This document shows, in pieces, positions 1,424 through 4,372 of a DNA stretch of 64,000 nucleotides. The stretch comes from Bartonella alsatica (lineage in GTDB: Bacteria; Pseudomonadota; Alphaproteobacteria; Rhizobiales; Rhizobiaceae), in the NCBI RefSeq assembly GCF_013388295.1, contig NZ_CP058235.1:908001-972000 (forward strand), read 5' to 3'. How positions within the stretch are numbered: the first letter of the stretch is position 1; each line of letters opens with the position of its first letter. Position numbers and translations under genes: made by a program. Below the pieces are notes generated by a model. It had not been told where the DNA came from. It made no database searches and was given only the letters and a program-made list of their open reading frames with translations.

Positions 1424-2056
1424 ATGAGAAATAATCGATCTAAACATATTCCGATAACACAAATAAAAAATCAACTCTTATCGTCTCTTGATAAACGAGC
1501 ACTTGTATTTGTTGGTCTTATGGGTGCAGGTAAATCAGTGATTGGGAAACGCGTCGCCACCATGCTCCATTTACCTTTTTATGATTCTGACCAAGAAATT
1601 GAAAAAGTTGTGCAAATGAAAATTACTGAAATCTTTAAAATTTATGGTGAACCGAAATTCCGAGCTCTTGAACAGCGTGTTATACTAAACCTCATAAAAA
1701 AAAGTCCTCTTGTTTTAGCAACAGGTGGTGGTGCCTATATAAATCAAGCCATCCAAAAAGCCATTCATCAAAATGGTATATCCATCTGGCTCAAAGCCGA
1801 TCTTGATACCCTCATGCGACGTGTTTCGCGCCACCCAACGCGACCACTTCTTCAAACAGCAAATCCTAAAGAAACCATGAGAAAACTCATGGAAGAGCGT
1901 TATCCTATTTATGGAAAAGCAAACTTGACAATTAACAGTCATAAAGAAAGCCGTTTTACCGTAGCAAAAAATGTCGTACGGTCTGTACAGCATTACCTCG
2001 ATACAGAAAATAACGATAGGAATAACAAGTATGCAAGCCAAGACCGTTACTATTAA
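1424..2056 (+). CDS. aroK: Shikimate kinase
   Basis: AroK phosphorylates shikimate at O3 using ATP, the fifth step of the shikimate pathway to aromatic amino acids. The 210-aa protein has a Walker A motif GLMGAGKS (residues 31-38), the shikimate-binding Asp in FYDSDQEIE (about 52-60), the GGG motif in LATGGGAYI (about 98-106), and the lid Arg in HPTRPLLQ (about 137-144). It overlaps the start of aroB by 26 bases, so the two form an aroK-aroB operon as in other Rhizobiales. About 25 residues precede the kinase core, a common extension in this order. Confidence 0.93.
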
Positions 2057-3164
2057 ACTGGACAAGCACTGTTATGATATCATCATTGGACCAAATCTCA
2101 TCACGCAAGCTGCTTTGCAAATTAAGCGTTCTCTTCACCATAAAGATTTTCATCAAACACGTTTAGCAATCGTTACAGATACAAATGTTGCATCTCTCCA
2201 TTTGGAGACATTACAGACAGAATTAACAAAAAATAAAATTCATACTGTTCCAATCGTTGTAGAAGCAGGGGAACAATCAAAGTCATTTTCAACTCTGAAA
2301 ACTGTTATTGATAAAATTCTTGCTGCACGTTTAGAAAGAGGTGACTGCATTATTGCTTTTGGGGGTGGTGTTATCGGCGACCTAGGAGGATTTGTCGCAA
2401 GTATCATACGCCGTGGTATGAACTTCATTCAGATGCCCACAACACTGCTTGCACAAATTGACTCCTCTGTTGGAGGGAAAACTGGTATCAATAGCCAATA
2501 TGGTAAAAATCTTATCGGTACTTTTTATCAACCACAATGCGTTCTTGCTGATACTCGTATCCTTGATACATTGCCATCGCGGGAATTTCGGGCTGGTTAC
2601 GCGGAAATGGTCAAATATGGTCTCATTAACCAACCCGATTTCTTTGAATGGCTTGAAAAAAATGGACAAAAAGTTTTTACTAATGATTCAGTACGAATAG
2701 AAGCTATTATCCGCTCATGCAAATTCAAAGCCGACATTGTAGCACGTGATGAATATGAAACAGGAGAACGCGCGTTATTAAACCTTGGTCATACATTTGG
2801 ACACATGCTTGAAACAGCAACCGCTTATGACTCAAACCGTTTAATCCACGGTGAAGCTGTAGCAATTGGAATGATTCTAGCCCATCAATTTTCTGCTCAA
2901 CTAAATTTAATAGATCCCGCACTCACAAATCGCATCGAAACACATCTTAAAACCGTAGGTTTACCTACGAAACTAAAGGATATCCCTGGTAAGCTGCCAG
3001 ATGCTACAACTTTGATGACCTACATTGCCCAAGATAAAAAAGTTTCCCAAAACAATTTGACTTTTGTTTTAACACGTGGACTTGGCCAATCATTTATCGC
3101 AAAAAATGTTTCACCAAATTCAGTTTTAACTTTCTTAGAACAAAAATTAACGAAAATTCGTTAA
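2031..3164 (+). CDS. aroB: 3-dehydroquinate synthase
   Basis: AroB converts DAHP to 3-dehydroquinate, the second step of the shikimate pathway, using NAD and a divalent metal. Visible motifs are the NAD-binding [11 protein letters not shown], the active-site segment [10 protein letters not shown], the [15 protein letters not shown] metal-ligand His, and [11 protein letters not shown] with the second His. I start it at ATG 2031 ([10 protein letters not shown], 378 aa). An open frame extends further upstream to 1971, but that would overlap most of the aroK tail and add residues untypical of the family. It forms an operon with aroK. Downstream lies the split tRNA-Arg gene. Confidence 0.94.
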
Positions 3165-3224: not shown

Positions 3225-3527
3225 GTCTGCGTAGCTCAGTAGGATAGAGCACAGGATTCCTAAAGAAATTGGGCGCCTTAAGGAGAAATCCTCAAAGTGG
3301 ATCTGCTCAAATTCGGGGAAAGCTTCATGGGAGACCATATGTCAATCCCGAGCCAAGCCTCTCTTTAAACGAAAGGAAGGTGTAGAGACTGAACGGGCAG
3401 CACCTAAAAAGCATAAGCTTCAAGGTGAAGAGACAGTCCAGACCACAAACAGCCTACAAAGCTGGCGGTGAAAACCGAAGTGGTATGAATCCTGGGGTCG
3501 CAGGTTCGAATCCTGCCGTAGACACCA
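3225..3527 (+). tRNA. trnR: tRNA-Arg(CCU), interrupted by a group I intron
   Basis: Exon 1 is 3225-3261 and exon 2 is 3488-3527. Joined, they give a 77-nt tRNA with acceptor stem GTCTGCG/CGTAGAC, D arm GCTC...GAGC, anticodon stem CAGGA/TCCTG, loop TT-CCT-AA, T arm GCAGG-TTCGAAT-CCTGC, discriminator A and an encoded CCA. The anticodon CCU (3259-3261) reads AGG arginine codons. The break is immediately after the third anticodon base. Standard tRNA finders may miss or mis-score the gene because of the long insert. All stems pair fully apart from one G-U in the acceptor, so the spliced product should be functional. Confidence 0.93.
3262..3487 (+). ncRNA. Group I self-splicing intron in tRNA-Arg(CCU)
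   Basis: The 226-nt insert follows a U and ends in G, as group I introns do. A complete core can be folded by eye. P1 is CCU|AA with TTGGG (3259-3263/3269-3273), giving the U-G wobble at the 5' splice site. P2 is AGGA-GAAA-TCCT near 3280-3291. P3 is CTGCTC/GGGCAG (3303-3308/3395-3400). P4 is TCGGG/CCCGA (3313-3317/3347-3351). P5 has a GAGA tetraloop (ATGG-GAGA-CCAT). P6 spans about 3358-3380. P7 is GACTG/CAGTC (3387-3391/3434-3438). P8 is CACCT/AGGTG (3401-3405/3423-3427). Two P9 hairpins follow, one capped GAAA. There is no endonuclease ORF. Group I introns at this tRNA are known in Agrobacterium. Confidence 0.93.
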
Positions 3528-3571
3528 TCGCATCAGTTAAATTATTCTTCTGCGCAATATAGGAAAACATT

Positions 3572-3961
3572 ATGAAAAAAACTTTACATATTTTAGGATT
3601 TTGGGCCGCTTCAAATCTAATACTCTTTAGCTCAGGCAACGCCTTGGCTGGTTCTTTAATTCTTGAAATACCAGAAAATCCAGAAACACAAACCATAACC
3701 TATCAATGTGATACTGGAACAAATAAAGAGCGTGTTGAAGCAACTTATTTCAAAACTGATAATATTTCACTGGTTGATTTCAAATGGAAAGGTGATCGTG
3801 TCATCGCTGCTAATGTTATCGCCGCCACAGGAGCAAAATACGCAGGAGCTCAGTATATCTGGTGGGAAGAAAACAAAGACGTCACGCTTTATGATCTTGC
3901 TCAGGACCCAGAAGAAAAACAACCTATCCTCTGTAAAGATGAATCAACGTTATTATTCTAA
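3572..3961 (+). CDS. Secreted MliC-like (lysozyme-inhibitor family) protein, copy 1
   Basis: A 129-aa protein with a signal peptide of about 26 residues (MKKTLHILGF..., cleaved after GNALA). The mature part has the MliC-type pattern: YQCDTGTNKERVEATYF, the SG/TGAKYAGAQYIWW segment and DVTLYDL, with two Cys likely to form a disulfide. The MliC family binds and inhibits c-type lysozymes in the periplasm or at the outer membrane. The first mature residue is not a lipobox Cys, so this one appears to be soluble periplasmic. An SD-like AGGAAAA precedes the ATG. It is followed 18 bp later by a close paralogue, so the pair arose by tandem duplication. Lysozyme inhibition is inferred from the family. 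Confidence 0.72.
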   Translation: MKKTLHILGFWAASNLILFSSGNALAGSLILEIPENPETQTITYQCDTGTNKERVEATYFKTDNISLVDFKWKGDRVIAANVIAATGAKYAGAQYIWWEENKDVTLYDLAQDPEEKQPILCKDESTLLF

Positions 3962-3979
3962 ATAAATAAAGGACATATT

Positions 3980-4372
3980 ATGAGAAAAACTTCTTTTATT
4001 CTACGATTTTTCGCCGCTTTAAGTCTATCATTCTTCGGTTCAGTGAACGCTTTTGCGTATTCTTTAGTTATCGAGGTACCAGATGATCCAGAACCAACAA
4101 AAGAAACTGTTGTCTATCAGTGTAATATTAAAACAAAAAAAGAACGTGTTGAAGCAACTTACTACAATGCCGGCAATATTGCGTTAGTTGATCTCAAATG
4201 GAACGGAAAGCAGATTATTGCTTCCAATGTCATCGCTGCTTCTGGAGCAAAATATGTGGGAGCTGAATACATTTGGTGGACCCAAAAAGACGAGGTGACA
4301 TTTTATGATCTGATTAATGATCCAAAACAGGAAATGCCCCTCAATTGTGTAGAAGAAAAAGGGACAGAATAA
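3980..4372 (+). CDS. Secreted MliC-like (lysozyme-inhibitor family) protein, copy 2
   Basis: A 130-aa paralogue of the preceding gene with the same architecture: a signal peptide of about 27 residues (cleaved near VNAFA), then YQCNIKTKKERVEATYY, ASGAKYVGAEYIWW and DEVTFYDL. The conserved core (KKERVEATY, GAKY, YIWW, YDL) matches copy 1 closely, while the N-terminal linker and the C-terminal tail differ. An AAGGA Shine-Dalgarno sequence lies just upstream of the ATG. It is likely co-transcribed with copy 1 and converges on phaG. The family suggests periplasmic lysozyme inhibition, but the retained divergence could mean a different ligand. Confidence 0.72.
   Translation: MRKTSFILRFFAALSLSFFGSVNAFAYSLVIEVPDDPEPTKETVVYQCNIKTKKERVEATYYNAGNIALVDLKWNGKQIIASNVIAASGAKYVGAEYIWWTQKDEVTFYDLINDPKQEMPLNCVEEKGTE

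Follow-up and report, generated by a model that had tools for sequence, protein, structure and literature searches.

A constrained group I intron in the tRNA-Arg(CCU) gene of Bartonella appears to be old and vertically inherited

Introduction

Why does a tRNA gene keep an apparently catalytic insertion that carries no endonuclease gene of its own? The question is raised by a tRNA-Arg(CCU) gene in the window, which is the whole 64-kb stretch of Bartonella alsatica DNA analysed here. The gene is interrupted directly after its anticodon by what is probably a self-splicing RNA, kept in every Bartonella genome examined and found in a minority of sampled relatives. We consider it very probable that the insertion is a catalytic, IC3-like group I intron without an open reading frame (ORF), that it was already present in the ancestor of Bartonella, and that it has since descended vertically and been kept by purifying selection for splicing.

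The interrupted tRNA-Arg(CCU) gene

ARAGORN in intron mode found the gene directly in the window, with an intron length of 226 nt. Without the intron option, the same program found no tRNA in the 64-kb window. At the gathering threshold, Rfam gave a single match in the window, Intron_gpI (RF00028), at positions 3249-3452 of the plus strand. The match scored 58.9 bits, where the gathering score is 50 (E-value 2.1e-12), and covered model positions 1-253 of 253. The first-pass annotation, made from the letters of the sequence, had read the insert as a group I intron and had staked this reading on an Intron_gpI match, which was thus obtained; its boundaries for the split tRNA are correct to the base. 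The features of the locus are as follows.

3225-3527, plus strand: tRNA-Arg(CCU) gene with intron (ARAGORN intron option and Rfam)
3225-3261, plus strand: exon 1 of tRNA-Arg(CCU), ending in the anticodon C34 C35 U36, which is C3259 C3260 U3261 (ARAGORN)
3262-3487, plus strand: group I intron of 226 nt with the terminal (omega) G at 3487, without an ORF of endonuclease size (RF00028, ARAGORN)
3488-3527, plus strand: exon 2 of tRNA-Arg(CCU), with CCA encoded (ARAGORN)
1971-3164, plus strand: aroB ORF directly upstream of the tRNA, named by reading of the sequence and used as the host-gene yardstick

The intron lies between U36 and A37 of the tRNA, as placed by ARAGORN and the sequence, and the exons joined by taking out the 226 nt are called a canonical tRNA-Arg(cct) by ARAGORN. 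In the single-contig genome of 1.66 Mb, RF00028 has one match, which is this intron. The longest open stretch within it is 69 codons, in agreement with the earlier statement that it contains no endonuclease ORF. Across the 71 genomes of the genus, the introns are 220-278 nt long with a longest open stretch of 77 codons, and no endonuclease gene was found in them. The homing endonuclease gene that marks a mobile intron is thus absent from the tRNA-Arg(CCU) intron.

An ORF of 80 residues on the minus strand (3454-3696), antisense to exon 2 and the end of the intron, appears to be an incidental consequence of the tRNA sequence and not a gene. On the 3' side of the tRNA, two similar ORFs in tandem (3572-3961 and 3980-4372) encode small proteins with signal-peptide-like starts.

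Secondary structure and covariation

A P1-P9 structure was drawn by hand on the window sequence and then laid over a sequence alignment of 43 introns, picked for diversity from 97 extracted ones (22 from Bartonella, 8 other Arg(CCU) and 13 Leu(UAA) introns). The elements below are given with their pairing across the cells of this alignment.

3259-3263/3269-3273, plus strand: P1, with the U3261.G3271 wobble at the 5' splice site and the guide GGG at 3271-3273; 98.5% of cells paired
3274-3299, plus strand: P2 with GAAA loop at 3285-3288; double changes in 8 of 9 counted pairs, 87.8% of cells paired
3303-3308/3395-3400, plus strand: P3; 100% of cells paired, 3 pairs changed on both sides
3312-3317/3347-3352, plus strand: P4; 93.8% of cells paired
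3322-3323/3341-3342, plus strand: P5; 98.8% of cells paired
3327-3330/3335-3338, plus strand: P5a with GAGA loop; 88.2% of cells paired
3353-3354/3379-3380, plus strand: P6 (43-intron alignment)
3358-3360/3374-3376, plus strand: P6a (43-intron alignment)
3387-3391/3434-3438, plus strand: P7, forming the P3-P7 pseudoknot; 100% of cells paired, double changes in 3 of 5 pairs
3401-3405/3423-3427, plus strand: P8; 90.7% of cells paired
3409-3412/3417-3420, plus strand: inner P8 helix; 88.2% of cells paired
3442-3446/3480-3484, plus strand: P9 (43-intron alignment)
3450-3453/3461-3464 and 3466-3469/3474-3477, plus strand: P9 hairpins, the second with a GAAA loop (43-intron alignment)
3268-3270 with 3488-3490, plus strand: possible P10; can form in 71 of 71 Bartonella introns, without covariation

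Across the 43 introns, 94.8% of the cells of P1-P9 pair, and 41 of the 64 pairs have changed on both sides. Slid versions of the structure pair in only 27.7-46.0% of cells, a comparison in which the real structure has the advantage of having been drawn from the window sequence. Double-change cells number 362 against a shuffle mean of 106, with none of 500 shuffles as high, in a test that related rows inflate. Stronger evidence than either comparison comes from the numerous double changes, which are spread over separate helices. Pairing is weakest in P2, in P5a, in the inner helix of P8 and in the last P8 pair, which is unpaired in 20 of the 43 rows. Free folding of the pre-tRNA gave a z-score of -2.43, and one of 100 shuffles was as stable.

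The splice-site U.G pair and the terminal G, both pointed out by the first-pass annotation, are present in 43 of 43 aligned introns. The exon-end U, the guide TTGGG, the terminal G and the P4, P7 and P10 motifs were found in all 71 Bartonella genomes, and a simple P3 motif in 69 of the 71 loci, with the two misses still pairing by eye. The guide strand of P1 follows the exon, since 30 rows have CG at the pair 3260-3272, 12 have UA and one has UG. The five pairs proposed for P7, by analogy the guanosine-binding helix, form in every cell. Three GNRA tetraloops had been described, and two of them are conserved (L2 in 43 and L9b in 42 of 43 introns). The third, L5a, which is GAGA in the window, has the GNRA form in only 11 of 43 and is therefore a feature of a lineage. 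The proposed P10 pairing of ATT with AAT is plausible from the sequence, as it is available throughout Bartonella, but covariation is absent across the 43 introns, where 88.3% of cells pair and 157 of 500 shuffles are equally high.

The Rfam score above the cut-off, the covarying P3-P8 core with its pseudoknot, and the U.G pair with the terminal G place the insert in RF00028. Its small size, the lack of an ORF, the position in the anticodon loop and the GNRA loops on P2 and P9 are those of a bacterial tRNA intron. The subgroup name, IC3-like, the kind known from Azoarcus and Agrobacterium, is given by resemblance to the traits of that subgroup.

Closely similar tRNA introns have been described as self-splicing, and the window intron has all the core helices together with both conserved GNRA loops. 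It is therefore unlikely that its RNA is inactive alone and that splicing needs a protein partner, although P2, P6a and P8 are, by eye, AT-richer or weaker than in many relatives, so that the window intron may fold less well alone, and a review describes group I introns that are helped by proteins (PMC3984707).

Distribution in Bartonella

An intron directly after the CCU anticodon was found by ARAGORN in intron mode in 71 of 71 Bartonella genomes, which range from 1.4 to 2.9 Mb. The RF00028 search matched 70 of them, 60 above and 10 below the gathering score. An absence of the intron from the remaining genome was rejected, because a DNA search finds it with 86% identity over query positions 10-321; the RF00028 miss is an effect of the search. 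As the gene is invisible without the intron option and 10 of 71 introns fall below the Rfam cut-off, an annotation can wrongly report tRNA-Arg(CCU) as missing. ARAGORN intron calls of 'tRNA-His(atg)', 'Ser', 'Phe' and 'Stop' were rejected as mis-cut tRNA-Arg(CCU) or tRNA-Leu(UAA) genes, judged by their exon motifs. An intronless CCU tRNA was sought with one self-made sequence pattern, which matched none of the 71 Bartonella genomes.

The aroB gene lies upstream of the intron-bearing tRNA in 66 of 71 Bartonella loci, and in 61 of them 56-71 nt separate the end of the aroB match from the tRNA. In the other five (L004, L005, L018, L032 and L067), the fetched stretch showed no aroB. Among named records, the core pattern had 55 matches, comprising 38 Bartonella, one Commensalibacter and 16 Burkholderiales. 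The best-scoring named match, in a collection that may leave out the window's own record, is Candidatus Bartonella washoeensis, whose intron is 95.1% and whose aroB-tRNA region is 84.8% identical over 2,433 bases.

Introns and intronless genes in the wider family

The R1 core model, derived from 38 introns, matched 68 of 394 genomes of the family: eight of eight Bartonella and 60 of 386 others. The sites of the 60 non-Bartonella matches, assigned with ARAGORN and exon motifs, are Arg(CCU) in 36 and Leu(UAA) in 22; of the remaining two matches, one runs into the end of a contig (G149) and the other is weak and partial (G111). Since no more than seven candidates per genome were scored in the first look, the numbers should be read as minima. 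Outside Bartonella, the intron in tRNA-Arg(CCU) is thus patchy, being present in at least 36 of 386 sampled genomes of the family.

At the level of the class, 50 of 385 genomes match the core model, and the best-scoring 50 of 58 match places were opened. Other alpha-proteobacteria have introns of this family in further tRNA genes, namely those for tRNA-Lys(UUU), Lys(CUU), Thr(GGU), Thr(CGU) and Leu(CAA) (loci L192, L238, L239, L242, L245, L246, L247, L248, L251 and L252; ARAGORN and site assignment). We know of no printed account of Lys, Thr or Leu(CAA) tRNA sites for this family. Commensalibacter intestini A911, a member of the Acetobacteraceae from the insect gut, has an Arg(CCU) intron (L285) that is 74.0% identical to that of the window over 227 columns. 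A 0.9-Mb genome of genus g83 (G384) gave a 22-bit RF00028 match with neither an R1 nor an intronless CCU match, which may be a decayed intron or chance.

The self-made intronless CCU pattern matched 223 of the 394 family genomes. Genomes with an Arg intron rarely have such a gene: it was matched in three of 36 of them against 220 of 350 others outside Bartonella, and in none of the eight Bartonella genomes (Fisher p 1e-10, uncorrected for relatedness). The other 130 of the 350 non-Bartonella genomes without an Arg intron had no match to the intronless pattern either. We opened 22 intronless places, chosen by eye. Of these, 20 were called tRNA-Arg(CCU); no tRNA was called at the match in G446. 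By reading, 13 of the intronless acceptor stems are like that of tRNA-Arg(UCU), four are of a third type and three are like the intron-bearing gene. A genome of another genus of the family (G088, locus L315) has an intronless tRNA-Arg(CCU) with an empty site that differs from the joined exons at two of 77 positions by our own count. No aroB was found beside any of the 22 opened places. With a near-identical intronless gene in a relative and none found in Bartonella, the genus is a clean setting in which to ask why introns without an endonuclease persist.

We tentatively suggest, as a possibility that is less than even, that the family loses the intron-bearing tRNA-Arg(CCU) mainly through replacement by an intronless CCU tRNA of the other type, with an acceptor stem like that of tRNA-Arg(UCU), and not through deletion of the intron. 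Bartonella and the other small-genome carriers of the intron would then have no such substitute and be locked into keeping it, their tRNA gene content acting as a one-way ratchet. The counts agree with such a ratchet, but they do not distinguish it from shared ancestry. In a post hoc, exploratory and weak comparison among the non-Bartonella members of the family, Arg introns occur in seven of ten genomes of at most 2.1 Mb and in 29 of 376 larger ones. Counted by genus, the figures are four of seven small-genome genera against 17 of 102 (Fisher p 0.025, likewise post hoc and exploratory), and several of the small-genome genera share the aroB neighbour and may represent one inheritance.

Constraint and vertical descent

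Distances between introns were compared with those between aroB genes for the 63 of 71 Bartonella loci with a usable aroB, which give 1,953 non-independent pairs. The two correlate with r = 0.91 for four-fold sites and r = 0.95 for codon positions 1+2. At a mean four-fold divergence of 0.355, the intron has diverged by 0.091 and aroB positions 1+2 by 0.083; at 0.619, the values are 0.205 and 0.192. The correlation includes 419 pairs beyond the last four-fold-divergence bin, which lie outside the binned values. The intron thus changes at about the rate of aroB codon positions 1+2, far below that of four-fold sites, which makes the constraint on it about as strong as that on the mostly protein-changing sites of an enzyme gene. 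The first-pass suggestion that an intact ribozyme is here under selection is sustained as far as constraint is concerned.

Because its distances track those of aroB, the intron seems to have been passed on along with the chromosome. As between descent and transfer, a choice that the first-pass annotation had left to comparison with relatives, this tracking and the identical site in all 71 Bartonella genomes point to descent. The intron appears to be old, vertically inherited and constrained in Bartonella and, judging from the sequences compared, was probably present in the ancestor of the genus. The aroB gene also adjoins the Arg intron in some genera outside Bartonella (g7, g27, g77, g84 and g93), and this common neighbour speaks for an ancestor older than Bartonella.

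Constraint and universal retention might also mean that the intron has been co-opted, with splicing regulating the supply of tRNA-Arg(CCU), for example by the level of guanosine or magnesium, or aiding the folding of the pre-tRNA. The intron sequence is under constraint, and all 71 Bartonella genomes keep it, compared with 36 of the 386 sampled family genomes outside the genus. However, constraint and retention are equally expected if the existence of the tRNA needs splicing. Moreover, the peripheral loops differ in length among Bartonella introns of 220-278 nt, and in an unsystematic look we noticed no conserved element beyond the catalytic core. We therefore regard co-option as improbable.

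The insertion sites were compared on a tree of 175 intron rows, which excluded 23 loci with unassigned sites, identical sequences and named Bartonella duplicates. The site labels change 11 times on this tree, for which the minimum is eight. In a quick tree without bootstrap, a branch with an SH-aLRT value of 100 divides the Arg side from nearly all Leu, Lys and Thr rows; interspersed with the Arg rows are the Ile rows and a single Leu row on a long branch (L111). The window intron therefore shares its site and descent with the Arg(CCU) introns rather than with those of tRNA-Leu(UAA). Bartonella was not recovered as one clade in the free quick tree; a tree constrained to a Bartonella clade was 79 log-likelihood units better, and one clade was not rejected (p-AU 0.978).

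A recent mobile arrival by homing or reverse splicing could be imagined, since members of this intron family are found in several different tRNAs of the class and of Burkholderiales, as well as on plasmids and in phage records. Within Bartonella, a recent mobile origin was rejected on the intron tree and the aroB-tracking distances. Given also the constant site in 71 of 71 genomes, the lack of an endonuclease ORF and site labels that change little more often than the minimum, recent mobility is highly improbable.

Occurrences on plasmids and in phages

The window intron matches 1,271 of 72,556 plasmid records, mostly from Enterobacteriaceae and Acinetobacter. Four of the loci were opened (L337, which is pCTX-M3 at 1448-1746, and L338, L339 and L340). 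Each is a tRNA-Leu(UAA), labelled 'Stop' by ARAGORN and read as Leu by its exon motif, with a 219-223-nt intron of the same family. Three of the four lie beside aac(3)-IId and one beside an IS3 transposase. These introns score 140.7-141.4 bits with R1 and give no match with Rfam at the gathering threshold. The tRNA and intron of pCTX-M3 are 95.4% identical over 302 nt to those at L212, in a genome from the same family as Bartonella (genus g51), an identity that hints at the origin of the plasmid segment.

Among 50,697 phage records, three match the window intron, all from large uncultured phages. One (LR756501, 920-1210) contains a tRNA-Leu(UAA) with a 205-nt intron that scores 117.4 bits with R1, and another (LR756511) scores 60.2 bits. 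According to a review, the phage introns observed by 2014 were all in protein-coding genes (PMC3984707).

Decoding of AGG and retention of the gene

AGG is the rarest arginine codon of the window: in a mechanically chosen set of 47 ORFs, it makes up 29 of 16,587 codons and is absent from 26 of the ORFs. The genome has tRNA-Arg(UCU), mnmE and mnmG. In well-studied bacteria, modification of U34 by MnmE/MnmG lets tRNA-Arg(UCU) read AGG too, so the cell could decode AGG even in the absence of the CCU tRNA. Given these three genes, the first-pass description of the interrupted tRNA as the only one that reads AGG is not supported, and the related claim that the intron cannot be lost without killing the tRNA is too strong on the same grounds. 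What stands of it is that the intron-bearing gene is the only CCU tRNA found, as no intronless one was matched in the 71 genomes.

A tRNA survey of the genome gave 36 matches. It named neither tRNA-Ile nor Ala(UGC), genes that usually lie in rRNA operons, and is probably incomplete there; the absence of a second CCU gene consequently rests mainly on the search with the intronless pattern. The data are compatible with an intron that is hard to lose because it lies within the sole CCU gene. It is scarcely credible that the tRNA gene is dead and the insert a relic that no longer splices: AGG is rare and tRNA-Arg(UCU) could cover for the loss, but the exons and core motifs are intact in 71 Bartonella genomes and the intron changes far more slowly than four-fold sites.

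Proposed mechanism of splicing and persistence

Based on the anatomy of the intron and its kinship, ordinary guanosine-started self-splicing is the most likely chemistry. In the folded pre-tRNA, P1 would present the 5' splice site at U3261.G3271. P7 would bind a guanosine that attacks after U3261, and the freed exon 1 would then attack after the terminal G3487. The exons would be joined into a normal anticodon loop, and the intron would leave. Retention is explained most simply if purifying selection maintains the splicing of this tRNA, the only CCU one found, and precise deletion of the intron is rare; the intron would not itself have to be useful.

Comparison with known systems

The window intron is a member of a known family. 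Group I introns in tRNA-Arg(CCU) of alpha-proteobacteria have been known since the 1990s; they were reportedly described in Agrobacterium and relatives by Reinhold-Hurek and Shub in 1992 and by Paquin et al. in 1999. The window intron resembles these introns in residing in the same tRNA after U36, in being small and ORF-less, and in belonging to one side of a well-supported branch. It differs in that 71 of 71 Bartonella genomes carry it, instead of a patchy distribution, and in its P6a and P8, which by eye are AT-rich and partly weakened. The tRNA-Leu(UAA) introns of the family (L109, L112, L212 and others) have cores 59-74% identical to the window intron and the same P1-P9 plan, but they occupy another tRNA, are inserted after U34, and their guide pairs with GACUU instead of UUCCU. 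The IC3 intron of tRNA-Ile(CAU) in Azoarcus and Burkholderiales accounts for 16 of the 55 records that match the core pattern, all of them Burkholderiales tRNA-Ile(CAU). It differs from the window intron in lying before the CAU anticodon, in its length of 248-256 nt (15 loci placed by ARAGORN) and in having another 5' domain. Structures of the Azoarcus pre-tRNA-Ile are cited in the review by Hausner et al. 2014 (PMC3984707), the main text of which has no mention of Bartonella or Agrobacterium. To these systems, our analysis adds the presence of the intron in all 71 Bartonella genomes examined, its constraint and apparent vertical descent, and its near mutual exclusion with intronless CCU genes among the sampled genomes of the family.
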